Of a DNA stretch of 64,000 nt, positions 11,491 to 34,565 are shown piece after piece. Positions within the stretch are counted from its first letter, which is position 1; each line of letters opens with the position of its first letter. This DNA comes from Planctomycetaceae bacterium (GTDB lineage Bacteria; Planctomycetota; Planctomycetia; Planctomycetales; Planctomycetaceae): the NCBI GenBank assembly GCA_020850695.1, contig JADZEF010000094.1, positions 1 through 64,000 of the forward strand. The letters run 5' to 3'. Made by a program: the position numbers and the translations under genes. The notes beneath the pieces are model-generated. The model had not been told where the DNA came from, did not search any database, and saw nothing but the letters and a program-made list of their open reading frames with translations.

Positions 11491-12630
11491 ATGTCGCACG
11501 AAATTCTCATGGAACGTTCGCGGACGCGTTGGGCCTGCGATGTTCTGCGGCTCCCCTTTGACGTCGCGCCCGATGATGCGCAGCGGGCCATGTTCGACCG
11601 GATCCGAGAGCAGGGTTTTGAACCCGAGCCCGCCACACGGGAAGCGATAGAAGTCGTTCAGGGCAGGACTCTGGAGGACGCATCGCTCATGACACGGTCC
11701 GAATGGCAGCGGTCCGTCCATGAGTCGCTTCGGCGCGAAATCGAGCAGTTCGCCGGGCGATTCTTCGGCTTGGACCCGCGGTCAAGGGAGAACGAGTGGC
11801 GGGCTCTGCATGACCGAGCGAAAGACTTTCCGCGACTGCAGGGACGCCTCGAAAGGCTTCAACCCGGACTGGCGATCCCGTCGCAGATTCCGCCCGGCGC
11901 TTCACCGGAAGTCGAGCGCCACATCCGGGGTCTGATGGCTGTCTTCGTGGCGTCGCCCACGAAGCGGCACGAGGCTATCCGCGAGGCGGGGTTCGATCTG
12001 CCTCGCCCGCAGATGAGAAAGCTCGCCCGTTTCGTCCGCCGGACGCTGCCGGAATTCGCGACGGTCGAACCCGCTCTGGTCGATCGCCTCACTCGGGGTG
12101 AGCCCGCCAGAACCGGTCCGGAAATCACTGTGTCGACCTCGTCCGGCGTCACGGGACCGCGCTCGGACTCGCAGAATTACCTTCCCGTCGCCCTGTTCAT
12201 TTCGCTTGCGATCTTGTTCTTCCGCGCCGTCTCGGCATTCAGCCCTGCCAACAGAGCGGAGGAAAGGCCGACAGCTATTGCCGCACCGCCGTTCTCATCG
12301 CCGGAGAGGCTGCCCGGCTATCGAACCGCCGAGTCGGCAAGGGAAACTTCGCAGCGACTGGAAAAATGGCAACAGGAGCAGCGCAGGGAGCGTCAGGCTC
12401 TTCAACAGCGCCGTCTGGATGAATTGAAAAGACGGACCTCGCCCCAACGCAAAGCGGTCGATACCGAGGAGCCAGCGATTGCTGAAATCCCGGAACCGCC
12501 TCGAAAGGACCCCGCACGCGGCGATTCGGTCCTGAGGCAGCTTCTTGAACTGAGGGGCCGGATGGATCAGAACCTGCGACGATTGGAAAAAAAGGAAGCG
12601 AGTGACGAGCAGGGGCGTAGTACGTTTTAG
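11491..12630 (+). CDS. Membrane protein of unknown function, paralog 1
   Basis: This unknown protein has 379 residues. It has an N-terminal helical cytoplasmic domain (about 1-190) that opens with WACDVLRLPFDVAPDDAQRA, recalling helix I-II of J domains without the HPD turn. One TM segment follows near residues 229-249 (LPVALFISLAILFF), then a charged coiled-coil-like C-terminus rich in Glu, Arg and Gln. It is clearly paralogous to the gene at 13073, sharing the FDRIRE motif, the EW..SV segment, DFPR and the KRH motif in the same order. The start is the ATG at 11491. Its last codons and stop are contributed by the inserted element at 12613; before insertion the frame would have ended at a TAA at 12993-12995. 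Confidence 0.75.
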   Translation: MSHEILMERSRTRWACDVLRLPFDVAPDDAQRAMFDRIREQGFEPEPATREAIEVVQGRTLEDASLMTRSEWQRSVHESLRREIEQFAGRFFGLDPRSRENEWRALHDRAKDFPRLQGRLERLQPGLAIPSQIPPGASPEVERHIRGLMAVFVASPTKRHEAIREAGFDLPRPQMRKLARFVRRTLPEFATVEPALVDRLTRGEPARTGPEITVSTSSGVTGPRSDSQNYLPVALFISLAILFFRAVSAFSPANRAEERPTAIAAPPFSSPERLPGYRTAESARETSQRLEKWQQEQRRERQALQQRRLDELKRRTSPQRKAVDTEEPAIAEIPEPPRKDPARGDSVLRQLLELRGRMDQNLRRLEKKEASDEQGRSTF

Positions 12631-12972
12631 TTGCAGGAATTGCCCAGTTTCAGCTTTGAGACACGAGGGGAACGAAAGTGTCCTGTACGCCAAAGGCGTT
12701 CCATCCGATAGCCCAGCGTCGCGAACGGAGTGAGCGCACGCTGGGAATGGCCGGAAAGTTTTCAGATACCCCAACGGGGTTCCATCCGAACGGGCCAGAT
12801 GCTCGTTATGGAACCCCGTTGGGGTACCTGATGAAATAGATGCCCCACCCAGCGTGCGCTCGCCAGGCCTCGCGACGCTGGGCTATCTGATGAAACGCCT
12901 TTGGCGTAGTGGGGCTTGCAACGTCATTCAAGTCTACCACGACAGGCAATGCAGGAATCCGCTCCTACGCCC
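12613..12972 (+). mobile_element. MITE-like palindromic element, copy A (360 bp, 8-bp target duplication)
   Basis: The element runs from GGGCGTAG (12613-12620) to its complement CTACGCCC (12965-12972) and is flanked on both sides by ACGAGCAG (12605-12612 and 12973-12980), a perfect 8-bp target-site duplication. The central 223 bp (12686-12908) is one large nested palindrome: ACGCCAAAGGCGTT with AACGCCTTTGGCGT, GATAGCCCAGCGTCGCGA with TCGCGACGCTGGGCTATC, GCGCACGCTGGG with CCCAGCGTGCGC, and ATACCCCAACGGGGTTCCAT with ATGGAACCCCGTTGGGGTAC. It holds no ORF. It is the reverse complement of the element at 34204-34565, with roughly fifteen differences in the central part by eye. It supplies the stop of the upstream gene and adds about 365 bp between the two paralogs. 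Confidence 0.85.
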
Positions 12973-13072
12973 ACGAGCAGGGCCAGGGGAGATAAGTTTC
13001 GCTCTCGTTGAGAGCTCGCTGCACCTCGAACGATCGGCGGAACATCGAAGTATTGAGTGGCGATCACAGGTC

Positions 13073-14152
13073 ATGTCGCACGAATCCACAACTCCCGGCA
13101 CCGCGGATCAATGGGCCCGCGATGTCCTGATGATTCCCGCAGAGGCGGCTCGCGAGGACGCGGCGCGTGCGTTGTTTGATCGCATTCGGGAAAGCCGCTT
13201 TGCGCCGAGCAAGGCAACGGTCGAAGCCATGTCGGTCGTGATCCATGGGGCCGGGCACTGGGCCACGATGTCGGCGCTGCCGGAGTGGCGGACTTCGGTC
13301 GAAACACGGCTCCAGGAGGACGTCGAGCGGTTCTTCACACACTATTTCTCCCTTGCGCCGGAAACTCGCCGCGAGCACTGGCAGGAACTGGTGAAGCGGG
13401 CGACCGACTTCCCGCGCATCCGGATCCGGCTCGCACGGCTCGAATCGGGCTTGTCGACTCCTGGCCAGCCGCCGCTCACCGCGACGGCCGAAGTGCAGGC
13501 GATGATGCGGCGGCTGATGTCGGTGTATCTCGCGCCGCCCGGAAAGCGTCATGCCGCATTGCAGCAGGCGGATCTGTTGAACGCTCCAGAGCAATCCCGG
13601 CACACGGCTCGGCAGATTCAGCGCAGCTATCCGCTCTGGGGACGGCTCGATCCGACGCTCCTCACGCATCTCGCGGGCAACGCACCGCCGGTTCGTCGCG
13701 TCCGTGCGCCCGAGCCGGTCGCTCCGTCGACGGAAGAAACGGGCAGCTATATGCCGGTGACTCTGATCGTGTTCGTCATCGTCGGAGTGATCCGGCTGGC
13801 GATGTTCGCGTCCGGAAGCTCGAGTTCGCACCACAACACCACGACGAGTTATCCCAAACCGCAAATCTCGATCCCTCCCGTCGGCCATGGGGGATCGGAT
13901 CGAATCCTGCAGGAACTTCGAGCCAGCATCAACGGAGATCGGCGGTTGAGTGAGCACCGGGAACGGCTGGAGCGTGAATTCGACACGATCACCAATGAGC
14001 CGGCCGCGGCGGAGATTCCCGGGGAGCCGCTGGATGACTCTTTGGAGATGCGGAGAAAGGACCTCGCAGCGCAAATCAAGAGCCGGCGGGCAGCCGAAAT
14101 CGGCACGCGCATTCTCTTCGGACTTCCTCCGCAGACGGAGAAGTCTCCGTGA
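13073..14152 (+). CDS. Membrane protein of unknown function, paralog 2
   Basis: This 359-residue paralog of the gene at 11491 has the same architecture: a helical cytoplasmic domain (about 1-195, opening WARDVLMIPAEAAREDAARA), one TM segment at about 225-245 (MPVTLIVFVIVGVIRLAMF), a Ser/His/Thr-rich stretch and a charged helical C-terminus. The start is the ATG at 13073, which repeats the MSHE opening of paralog 1; a longer frame upstream is non-coding in character and runs into the mobile element. Its stop TGA overlaps the GTG start of the J-like gene (GTGA at 14149-14152), which implies translational coupling. The function is unknown; the three genes probably form one functional unit. Confidence 0.75.
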   Translation: MSHESTTPGTADQWARDVLMIPAEAAREDAARALFDRIRESRFAPSKATVEAMSVVIHGAGHWATMSALPEWRTSVETRLQEDVERFFTHYFSLAPETRREHWQELVKRATDFPRIRIRLARLESGLSTPGQPPLTATAEVQAMMRRLMSVYLAPPGKRHAALQQADLLNAPEQSRHTARQIQRSYPLWGRLDPTLLTHLAGNAPPVRRVRAPEPVAPSTEETGSYMPVTLIVFVIVGVIRLAMFASGSSSSHHNTTTSYPKPQISIPPVGHGGSDRILQELRASINGDRRLSEHRERLEREFDTITNEPAAAEIPGEPLDDSLEMRRKDLAAQIKSRRAAEIGTRILFGLPPQTEKSP

Positions 14153-15630
14153 GCACGCTGCCCGACAATCCGGACGATTGGCCGCGCGATCCGTTTCAGT
14201 TGCTGGGAATCACGTCGCAAGCCGAGACGGACGACGTTCGTCGGGCGTATACGCGGCTTGTGCGGCGGTATCGTCCGGACGAGGCCCCGCACGAGTTCCA
14301 GAAGATCCGCGCCGCCTATGAATTGGCGAATCAACTCATCGAACTGCGGTCGACGCACGGCCCCCTGAGCGTCTCGGCCGAGGCGGACGGATCGTTGCGT
14401 GTTCAGACCACGGGGCCGTCGAGCGAGCCGGACGCGGACGCGTCGACGGATGGTCCGCAGTCGCCCCAGGCCGACGTCGATCGCTCCTTCCCGCATTCGC
14501 GGCATGACAGTCGGAACCCAGAATCTCCGGCATCGAGTGCTTCAAACCCATTGGATGCCGCGTGGAACCTCGCCCGCAACGGCGATCCGGACGGAGGACG
14601 CGCGGCCCTGCTCTCGCTGCGCGATGCGGCCCCTCACGATCCCGAGCCGTGGTTGAGACTGTTCTGGCTGCACGTCCTCGTCCCGCAGCTCGACCGGGAG
14701 CGGAATGCCGGGGATTGGCTGCTGGGGGGTCTGCAGGCGACAGCCCTCTCGCCTCGGTTGCTGGACGTCTATTGTGACGAGCTTCGGCGCTCTCCAGTCT
14801 TGGTTCGCAGCGATGCAGGTGACTCGCTGCTGGCGGTCGACGCTCCGCGTGAGCGATTGTTCGAAGCCTCGCGTTCCCGCTGGCGGGCGGCGGCGTACGT
14901 CAACGCCTGGGAGCGGATCGATCGCGACCTGGATCATCTCCGCACGCGGCTGATGATCGACCATCCGGACGACTGGGTCAGCCAGATCTTCGCTGCGCTG
15001 GATCATGCGGTATGGTCGAGCCAGGACGGCGCACAGCGGCTGGCATCACGATGCCGCCACGAATTGGCCGGCTTTCGCGACCGGGAGCTCGCGCTGTCGC
15101 ACGAGTATGAGCGACACGCGTTTCTGCTAGAGCTGGCCAGCGATCCGAACATGTCAGCCAACGAGCCGATGCGGCGGCTCATACGGAATTCGTGGACGAG
15201 CCCGATCGCGGACATTCTTCCGGACTTCGAACGTCTCGTTCAGGAATGGGTTGCTTTTCCTGCGGGGGCGCTACAGACAGTGACGTCTTTCGCCCACGCG
15301 TCGCCCGTGGGGTTCGACCAGCTCTGGCGCGTGATGCGGCAGCTTCCGGTTCGCGAGGAGTTGCGGCCAAGCCAGCAGCGTGTCACGGATCTCGGACCGC
15401 TGATGACGCAGTACTTTTCGACCCTTTCGGGGGTCGACTACATGGCGTGGCGGTCGAGCTTTCTGGAATTCTGCCTGCAAGAGGTGATCTGGCCGGAAGA
15501 GTTCGTCGAGTATCTTTCACGCCGGCCGTCCTGGATGAATGCGGGACCCGCGGCGGAAGAGATTGTGAACGATGCGGTCCTGCGGTGCATCGCGTGCGGG
15601 GGGCTGGTGTTTCTGGCGTCGATGGGTTGA
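14149..15630 (+). CDS. J-domain-like protein with degenerate HPD motif
   Basis: This is a 493-residue protein. Residues 13-62 match a J domain (DPFQLLGITSQAETDDVRRA ... FQKIRAAYELAN), but the invariant HPD of the Hsp70-stimulating loop reads RPD (R42-P43-D44). A low-complexity Ser/Pro/Asp linker follows to about residue 130. The rest is helical, with TPR-like character near WNLARNGDPDGGRAALLSLR; no other domain was recognised. There is no signal peptide or TM. The start is a GTG at 14149 that overlaps the preceding stop. The loss of the His suggests it may not stimulate DnaK ATPase in the normal way. It may instead use the J fold as a scaffold with the two membrane paralogs encoded upstream. 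Confidence 0.75.
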   Translation: MSTLPDNPDDWPRDPFQLLGITSQAETDDVRRAYTRLVRRYRPDEAPHEFQKIRAAYELANQLIELRSTHGPLSVSAEADGSLRVQTTGPSSEPDADASTDGPQSPQADVDRSFPHSRHDSRNPESPASSASNPLDAAWNLARNGDPDGGRAALLSLRDAAPHDPEPWLRLFWLHVLVPQLDRERNAGDWLLGGLQATALSPRLLDVYCDELRRSPVLVRSDAGDSLLAVDAPRERLFEASRSRWRAAAYVNAWERIDRDLDHLRTRLMIDHPDDWVSQIFAALDHAVWSSQDGAQRLASRCRHELAGFRDRELALSHEYERHAFLLELASDPNMSANEPMRRLIRNSWTSPIADILPDFERLVQEWVAFPAGALQTVTSFAHASPVGFDQLWRVMRQLPVREELRPSQQRVTDLGPLMTQYFSTLSGVDYMAWRSSFLEFCLQEVIWPEEFVEYLSRRPSWMNAGPAAEEIVNDAVLRCIACGGLVFLASMG

Positions 15631-15695: not shown

Positions 15696-17663
15696 TCACG
15701 GTCGGCGACGCGGCGGAGGGCGATTATTGTTCTGGCCGGGGGGGGCGTGGAGACGGTCGCGATATTTCTTGTAAGCCGCTTCGAGTTCCTTGAACGTCCC
15801 TTTCCCATCTCGGTTCGTGTCGACCTTCTTGAAGACGTGCTCTGGAAGTTCGTCTATGGTCAGCTCGTTGTCTCCATTGAGATCGAACTTCGCGAACTCC
15901 TTCCTGATGTCAGGGGGGCCCATCGGCCCGTTGCCGGGCATGGGGGGGTCGGGGCGTGTAACAGGGGGCTTGGGCTGCGCGGGGGCGGGAGGCTTTGCGG
16001 CGGGCTCGGCCGTCCCCGGTTTCACTTTCTCGGCAGGTGGCGAGAGGGGCTCTTTCTTCTCGCCGCCGCTGGAAGCGACGGAATTTTCGGGCGATGCGGG
16101 AGCTGAAACGGTTGGAACGGAGTCGCCCGCCGGCAGATCGGTCGGCGGGGCTTTCGCGACAGTCTCGGGCGGGGCGTCCGAGGGGGCCGCCGGAGAAGTC
16201 TCGGGCCGGTCGGGTTCTTCGGCCGCGACGGATTCAGGCCCAGACGACTTTAAAAGAGTCGCATCGGATACCGGAGGTTCAACGTCGGTTTGTTCGTCGG
16301 AAGCCGCCGGTGAAACAGAAGCTGCGGAGGCCGGGCTCGCCTGGGCCAGGTTGGTGGATGCCGCGGAACCGGAGGGCAAAGTCGAAGGATTTCCCTGGAA
16401 GAGTCGTGGAAGAAGCAGCACCGCACCGACTCCAATGGCGATGCCGATCCCCATCAACACCAGAGGTTGCGGGCGGCGCTCTTCGGCGCGGAGGTTCGTG
16501 CGTGAGGCCGCACGCCGCCGCGGCGGTTCGGGCAGTTTGTCCTTGCGGCTGGCCAGCAGGGCTTCCCACTCGGTGTCGTCCGCGCCGCCGCGGGTCTGCT
16601 GAGAGGCGTCTTTGGGGTCGGAATGCGGACCGCTCGCCGCGGGACCTGGAGGCAGTTCCATGGTCCCGTTTTCGTTGCCCGGCTTCCCTTTCAAGAAATT
16701 GCTCAGCGCCTGTCCGAGATCGCGCATGCTGGCATAGCGCTGAGCCGGGTCTTTCGCCATCGCCTTGGCGCAGATGGCGGCGATGTCCGGGGACAATTCT
16801 GGTCGCAGTTCGCGAACCGGTTTGGCTTCGACATGCAGGATCTGCCCGAGGATCCCGGCGATGTTTCCTCGGAAGGGCTGCGTGGCGGTCAGCAGTTCGT
16901 AGAGGATGACGCCGAGGCTGTAGATGTCGGTCGCGGGGCCAAGGTCTGCCCTGCCCTGCACCTGCTCGGGGGACATGTAGGCCGGCGTGCCGACGGCGAG
17001 CCCTTCCTGGGTGAGCCGCGCCTGCGAGGCGTCCTGCAGGTTTCGCGCGAGGCCGAAATCCATCAGGATCGGCTCGTTGCGGCGGTCGATCATGATGTTG
17101 CCGGGCTTCAGATCGCGATGGATGATCCCGTGGTCGTGGGCTTCCTGAATCGCGAAGGCGAGCTTGCGGACGACGGCGGCGGCCTGACGCTCGGCCTGGG
17201 GGCGGCCGGGCTTGATGTAGTCGCTGAGGGGGCGGCCTTCGATGTAGCCCATCGCCATGTATCGCACGCCCCCGCTATCCCCCGCGTCATAGACGGGACA
17301 GATATTGGGATGCGTGATGACCGCTGCAGAGCGAGCCTCGCGGAAGAAGCGTTCGACCGCATCGGCCGGGGCGGGATCGCTGAAGCTCGGAATCTTCAGC
17401 GCAACGGGCCGGTCGAGGTCGAGGTCGCGGGCGAGATAGACACTCCCCATGCCGCCGCGGCCGAGAAGTTTCTCGATACGATACCGCCCCAGCGGATACG
17501 CGGGGAGCGCCTCCGTGGCGGGAAGGCTTTGAAACGAGGGGACAGGCTGTGCGCCGGTCGGCGCCGCTTGGGTGGCGTAAACGTCATCGCGCGGCGCTTG
17601 AGCGGAAGACGCGTCTTCGGAAGCGGATCCGGCACGAGCCTCGGCGGCAGAGGAAGTGGTCAT
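15696..17663 (-). CDS. Transmembrane Ser/Thr protein kinase with C-terminal EF-hands
   Basis: This 655-residue Hanks-type kinase has its kinase domain at about residues 60-320: glycine loop GRGGMGSVY (near 68), VALKIPSF, catalytic HRDLKPGNIM (near 184), DFGLA and GTPAYMSPEQ, all intact. One TM helix lies near residues 400-420 (VLMGIGIAIGVGAVLLL). The region beyond is about 165 residues of Ser/Pro/Glu/Ala-rich linker. It ends in two EF-hand loops, DLNGDNELTIDE (about 594-605) and DTNRDGKGTFKE (about 615-626), followed by a Pro/Arg tail. The kinase end is cytoplasmic and the calcium-binding end would lie outside the membrane. The start is the ATG at 17663, with AGGAA upstream. The substrate is unknown. 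Confidence 0.92.
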   Translation of the reverse strand: MTTSSAAEARAGSASEDASSAQAPRDDVYATQAAPTGAQPVPSFQSLPATEALPAYPLGRYRIEKLLGRGGMGSVYLARDLDLDRPVALKIPSFSDPAPADAVERFFREARSAAVITHPNICPVYDAGDSGGVRYMAMGYIEGRPLSDYIKPGRPQAERQAAAVVRKLAFAIQEAHDHGIIHRDLKPGNIMIDRRNEPILMDFGLARNLQDASQARLTQEGLAVGTPAYMSPEQVQGRADLGPATDIYSLGVILYELLTATQPFRGNIAGILGQILHVEAKPVRELRPELSPDIAAICAKAMAKDPAQRYASMRDLGQALSNFLKGKPGNENGTMELPPGPAASGPHSDPKDASQQTRGGADDTEWEALLASRKDKLPEPPRRRAASRTNLRAEERRPQPLVLMGIGIAIGVGAVLLLPRLFQGNPSTLPSGSAASTNLAQASPASAASVSPAASDEQTDVEPPVSDATLLKSSGPESVAAEEPDRPETSPAAPSDAPPETVAKAPPTDLPAGDSVPTVSAPASPENSVASSGGEKKEPLSPPAEKVKPGTAEPAAKPPAPAQPKPPVTRPDPPMPGNGPMGPPDIRKEFAKFDLNGDNELTIDELPEHVFKKVDTNRDGKGTFKELEAAYKKYRDRLHAPPGQNNNRPPPRRRP

Positions 17664-34203: not shown

Positions 34204-34565
34204 GGGCGTAGGAGCGGATTTCCGCATTGCATACGTGGTGGAGTTGAGTGACGCCGCGAGCATCACTGCGCCAAAGGCGTTTCGTCAGATAGCCCAGCGT
34301 CGCGAGGCCTGGCGAGCGCACGCTGGGTGGGGCATCGATCTCATCAGGTATCCCAACGGGGTTCCATAACGAGCATCTGGCACGTTCTTATGGAACCCCG
34401 TAGGGGTACCTGAAACCTTCCGGCCATTCCCAGCGTGCGCTCACTCCGTTCGCGACGCTGGGCTATCGGATGGAACGCCTTCGGGCGTACGGAGAATTCA
34501 CGTTCCCCCTCTCGCTTCTCACCGCAGAGACTGGGCAATTCCTGCAACCAGAACTTATTACGCCC
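34204..34565 (-). mobile_element. MITE-like palindromic element, copy B (362 bp, 8-bp target duplication)
   Basis: Reverse-complement copy of the element at 12613-12972. The ends are GGGCGTAG (34204-34211) and TTACGCCC (34558-34565). Flanks are ACAGTCGC (34196-34203) and AGAGTCGC (34566-34573), a target duplication with one mismatch. The nested palindrome spans 34267-34489. It holds no ORF. It lies between the WD40 gene and the TIM-barrel gene at 34597, both on the minus strand, and would transcribe into a strong multi-stem RNA if read through. Confidence 0.82.

Follow-up and report, generated by a model that had tools for sequence, protein, structure and literature searches.

Genes and features of the locus

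The window, by which we mean the entire stretch of 64,000 nucleotides that was analysed, carries three open reading frames in tandem on the + strand, encoding two paralogous membrane proteins (A, then B) and a J protein. Paralog A (11491-12630, 379 aa) and paralog B (13073-14152, 359 aa, ATG start) each possess a helical N-terminal domain and one hydrophobic segment, a single transmembrane segment (TM) at residues 231-249 in A and 229-247 in B; the C-terminal tail is charged in A, helical and charged in B. The two sequences are 34% identical over 340 aa (E 3e-44). The J protein (14149-15630, 493 aa, GTG start) consists of an N-terminal J domain, a linker and a TPR-like helical region. The longest frame of paralog B opens at 12854; because translation from 11491 and 13073 gives both paralogs the same first residues, MSHE, the ATG at 13073 was preferred. 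The GTG of the J gene lies inside the end of paralog B, giving a 4-base overlap (GTGA). Both features, the two single-TM paralogs preceding a J-domain protein and the overlap of its start with the second stop, had been described in the first-pass annotation and were seen here. The codon-position GC content of the trio is coding-like (GC3 0.69-0.76 vs GC2 0.49-0.52). All three frames (493, 379 and 359 aa) exceed what chance would give: when the region was shuffled 200 times, no ORF was longer than 351 aa.

Paralogs A and B are separated by a dispersed imperfect palindromic element of about 240 bp (12672-12920, + strand; MITE/REP-like), whose arms are 95% complementary. A second copy occupies positions 34256-34490 of the window, and dozens of copies exist in the same genome, a dozen of them at 90-97% identity. 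The element is an insertion between the paralogs and no part of the machinery. The - strand (15696-17663) encodes, convergent with the J gene, a Ser/Thr protein kinase that has a TM and, C-terminally, a pair of EF hands; this gene does not stand beside the module in those loci of relatives that were read. A comparison with defence-system models gave no match for the trio and a single weak match, which concerned the Hsp70 only, and no phage relatives of the J protein were found.

The J protein and its altered motif

The J protein scored 30.5 bits against the Pfam DnaJ model (cut-off 27.8). In the AF2 model, the J domain (about residues 12-70) is composed of helices 15-18, 27-40 and 47-70, and VIA-align superimposed residues 4-72 onto 6jmg (xRbj) with a Z-score of 9.0 and an rmsd of 2.7 Å for 69 aligned residues. 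Judged by profile and predicted structure, this is a real J domain. It is followed by a low-confidence linker and the TPR-like helical region, which spans about residues 130-335 and continues beyond; a domain search revealed neither a G/F region nor a zinc or client-binding beta domain. The C-terminus (residues 472-490) is weakly hydrophobic and modeled as a helix by AF2, and it is absent in most near relatives. Most J proteins of the second clade of the family (clade II) possess two TMs at the C-terminus, whereas most of clade I have none.

At the HPD position, the J domain of the window carries RPD. HPD is absent in 60/60 J domains of the family, a number to be read with the sampling in mind: the pattern of the GTDB scan did not cover the motif position, but the profile models were built from non-HPD J proteins, so that HPD-bearing members could be under-sampled. 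The most frequent motif is KPE (37 of the 60), followed by RPE (5), RPD (4) and KPD (3); RAE, PAH, SPD and PPE occur twice each, SPE, TPE and GPD once each. The module is thus a large natural set of Hsp70-linked, HPD-less J domains. According to a 2026 review (PMC13254874), HPE is the only change of HPD that seems to be tolerated, and whether altered-HPD J domains arose by accident or were selected is enigmatic. As all 60 are non-HPD and most adjoin HscC, the family makes it possible to ask directly if an HscC is stimulated by a KPE or RPD J domain of its own system.

The TM paralogs and the anchor family

Neither paralog has a match in Pfam or NCBIfam, and no Pfam family fits the members of the TM family that were searched. 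DUF1266 proteins were considered as candidate relatives: 20 members of the family showed no match to DUF1266, and hhalign found no homology to YbeU/YbeR (probability 0.1-0.3%, with two YbeU/YbeR rows only). The AF2 model of paralog B has a mean pLDDT of 78. Foldseek gave no fold match with E below 0.001 for the TM-protein model, and the best VIA-align hit (Z 6.3, residues 77-131) consists of ordinary helical repeats.

Within the family, hhalign identifies the TM proteins of clades I and II as homologs across the N-domain (97%, E 1e-11), and paralog B is homologous to the TM genes which sit between HscC and J in relatives. In the TM tree, A and B are sisters (support 0.97), and the TM pair of locus L132 are sisters of their own (0.90); the two duplications therefore look separate. 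The second TM paralog appears to have arisen by duplication of the anchor gene within this lineage. Many clade II TM proteins end at most 12 residues (0-12) after the TM, and such tail-anchoring in many members argues for a cytosolic N-domain. Since most J proteins of clade I lack a TM, membrane anchoring in this clade probably falls to the TM protein alone.

It had been proposed in the first-pass annotation that the paralog N-termini resemble helices I-II of a J domain. If so, they could be pseudo-J domains pairing with the real J domain in the manner of Pam16 and Pam18, which would add to the main reading given below and not exclude it. The best hhalign match between the TM1 family and the J-domain family indeed places helix I-II in register, with a score of 20.1, but it spans 29 columns at a probability of 3-4%. 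None of 300 column-permuted controls reached this score; however, column permutation destroys helical periodicity, and helical controls scored 14.6-16.4 vs 20.1. The AF2 helices of the paralog N-terminus (8-18, 27-40, 47-56) are spaced like those of the J domain. Among clade I members, 5/21 matched J in that register, compared with at most 2 in 200 shuffled sets, whose shuffles do not keep relatedness; most TM members and clade II gave no J-like match in hhalign. The fold matches listed for the TM-protein model include no J domain, although this comparison barely probed the N-terminus. The signal is weak overall, and we consider pseudo-J N-termini unlikely. The stronger version, in which pseudo-J anchors and an HPD-less J domain would jointly form a membrane Hsp70-activating unit for a co-evolved HscC, is quite unlikely; were it true, it would be a bacterial Pam16-Pam18-like arrangement with the H replaced mostly by K/R throughout the family.

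Gene neighbourhood in relatives

In the set of relatives searched, homologs of paralog B adjoin a J homolog in 5/5 other genomes. This is the co-occurrence of homologs for which the first-pass annotation had proposed a neighbourhood survey, and it supports its notion of a membrane-anchored, chaperone-like module. The usual order in Planctomycetota is HscC-type Hsp70, single-TM protein, J protein; the ends of these genes often overlap, and an Hsp70 lies upstream in nearly all loci read (those of the paralog B homologs and of second-clade homologs). A scan of GTDB genomes with a model derived from a four-row J alignment yielded 31 loci; in addition, 393 genomes of the phylum were scanned, and the order Hsp70-TM-J recurred in both. 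After removal of known duplicates, 60 J genes were left, 55 of which had enough flanking sequence and five of which were too near a contig end. An Hsp70 is in the same cluster for 53/55 judgeable J genes, a count which covers related sequences and thus events that are not independent. For 48 J genes the Hsp70 lies within 2 kb on the same strand; five further ones are clustered with an Hsp70 behind a tandem copy or insert (two at L071, one each at L128, L132 and L047). The only Hsp70-less loci among the 55 are the window and L043. Locus L132 has the order Hsp70-TM-TM-J, i.e. that of the window plus an Hsp70, and TM-J pairs are repeated at L128 and L071; these arrangements may illustrate a route by which the trio of the window originated.

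Several loci deviate from the usual scheme. In a Gimesia MAG (L071, 1440-8641), the Hsp70 is followed by three tandem TM-J pairs. In Candidatus Uabimicrobium amorphum (L077), an HscC-type Hsp70 directly precedes a J protein of 984 aa, which carries the KPE motif and four predicted TMs and possibly combines anchor and J in a single chain. Simpler two-gene pairs were observed outside the planctomycetes (L089, L090, L097; L087, L091; L078, L079): Firmicutes have Hsp70-J with a TPE/PPE motif, and the order J-Hsp70 occurs in Cyanobium (motif PAH) and in Deltaproteobacteria MAGs (motif SPD). The Hsp70s of these pairs do not belong to the clade of HscC and the planctomycete proteins. The idea that the complex is planctomycete-specific may hold for the TM protein, but not for the Hsp70-J pair.

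The probable Hsp70 partner

The linked planctomycete Hsp70s are about 39-41% identical to E. coli HscC vs about 35-38% to DnaK, and they group with E. coli HscC in trees. HscC is characterized by a deletion in the NBD at DnaK residues 76-101, an insertion in loop L1,2 of the SBD-beta and a helix-B deletion (PMC8215388). All linked Hsp70s exhibit the NBD deletion and a longer L1,2 loop, and those of the first alignment the helix-B deletion; the full set of hallmarks, including a length of about 550-580 aa, is present in the linked Hsp70s of the relatives and in an Hsp70 on contig C235 of the genome to which the window belongs. In nearly all linked Hsp70s, the linker has a T at the position of DnaK L392. 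Residues R167 and N170 (DnaK numbering), the first of which contacts the J-domain aspartate in DnaK (PMC8215388), are conserved in nearly all linked HscCs; exceptions at R167 are the copies from Cyanobium and Deltaproteobacteria.

No Hsp70 gene adjoins the trio in the window. The C235 protein, which has no TM or J neighbour, is the genome's single HscC-type Hsp70 of the matching clade and is 58% identical to the Hsp70 of the L042 operon, a member of the same clade. The search of this genome revealed no non-HPD J protein apart from that of the window. With one matching HscC and one non-HPD J protein, the two are probably partners in trans, which is the simplest reading of the gene content; as the genes are not adjacent, we infer the partnership. 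At the other Hsp70-less locus (L043, genome G001), there is likewise no clade I HscC beside the TM-J pair, and the best HscC match lies in that genome's own second, clade II operon. On contig C78 of the window's genome (L063, 6247-8998), a divergent Hsp70 is followed by a 344-aa single-TM protein starting MDVYKEWLGIPEGPRPPDHYTLL, possibly a further Hsp70-membrane pair.

The first-pass annotation had suggested predicting the structure of a complex with DnaK. DnaK is the most common partner of J proteins, and a canonical DnaK-like Hsp70 is encoded at C357 of the same genome. The J protein might serve DnaK, and the TM proteins would then act as recruiters at the membrane. However, the same genome holds two other proteins with strong DnaJ-domain matches, and in the loci read the family is tied genetically to HscC-type or HscC-like Hsp70s and not to DnaK. 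Moreover, E. coli HscC accepts DjlC but refuses DnaJ, CbpA and HscB (PMC8215388). We therefore regard service to DnaK as very unlikely; the linkage in relatives points to an HscC-type Hsp70.

A more radical view is that the J protein activates no Hsp70 at all: after the Hsp70 had left the operon, the trio would have become a relic or repurposed scaffold, in which J only binds or inhibits. The missing Hsp70 neighbour and the RPD motif fit this view, as does the current opinion that altered HPD motifs abolish stimulation (PMC13254874). Yet a non-HPD motif is the rule in all 60 members, including those beside an Hsp70, and RPD is thus no mark of decay; in addition, the frames are intact, their codon use is coding-like, and a matching HscC has been kept on another contig. 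For these reasons, loss of function appears decidedly improbable.

Interpretation of the trio

The reading we prefer, with a probability of roughly 0.8, is that the trio constitutes the membrane-anchor and co-chaperone part of an HscC-type Hsp70 system tethered at the inner membrane. It is supported by the clustering of 53/55 J genes with an Hsp70 and the Hsp70-TM-J order in nearly all relatives, by the L132 arrangement, the HscC hallmarks of the linked Hsp70s and the C235 Hsp70, and by the DjlB/DjlC-like J domain and the retention of R167 and N170 in linked HscCs. Against it count the distant Hsp70 gene, the replaced H of HPD and the failure to detect homology to DjlB/DjlC outside the J domain.

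J domains act by inducing the Hsp70 to hydrolyse ATP. In the proposed HscC-type system, the TM proteins would keep the complex attached to the inner membrane on its cytoplasmic side, a separate anchor protein thereby recruiting both J protein and Hsp70. The RPD J domain would trigger ATP hydrolysis by the diverged HscC, which would then act on membrane or membrane-proximal clients, and the TPR-like region of the J protein may bind clients or the anchor. The second TM paralog could provide heteromeric anchors or a second client range. Part of the family may have been described by Barriot et al. 2020.

Comparison with known systems

With the canonical DnaK-DnaJ-GrpE machinery, the trio shares the J-domain fold and the Hsp70 logic; it differs in that the family lacks HPD and the partner Hsp70 in relatives is HscC-type. 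The window J protein lacks the HPD, G/F and beta-sandwich features of class A and B J proteins. The mitochondrial import motor, which was compared via PMC13254874 alone, resembles the trio in that a J protein (Pam18) acts at a membrane together with a second protein (Pam16); in the trio, a degenerate J domain in the second protein is a possibility of low probability.

The closest counterpart is E. coli HscC with DjlC (HscD) and DjlB. DjlC, a tail-anchored inner-membrane protein, stimulates the ATPase of HscC (PMC8215388). Common to both systems are an HscC-type Hsp70, adjoining genes (in the relatives) and membrane attachment, and DjlB/DjlC share with the J family of the window a non-HPD motif and a short helix II-III loop before a helix III of the type F-x-x-L/I-R-x-A-Y-E (FxxLRxAYE in DjlB/DjlC and the window J protein). 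Outside the J domain, hhalign detected no homology between the J protein and DjlB/DjlC (probability 0.1-0.2%, with two E. coli rows only). In E. coli, the J proteins carry their own tail anchor and an HPE motif, and DUF1266 proteins precede the J genes; here, a single-TM protein takes that place. The window differs further in its two TM genes and in the location of the Hsp70 gene elsewhere in the genome; because of this distant Hsp70 gene, we count the trio as a variant of the HscC-type system. The first-pass annotation had recognised the trio in no described system; with an HscC-type Hsp70 as partner in relatives and a J domain resembling those of DjlB and DjlC, this view had to be revised. 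The module would also give HscC a conserved membrane-anchor partner outside the proteobacteria.
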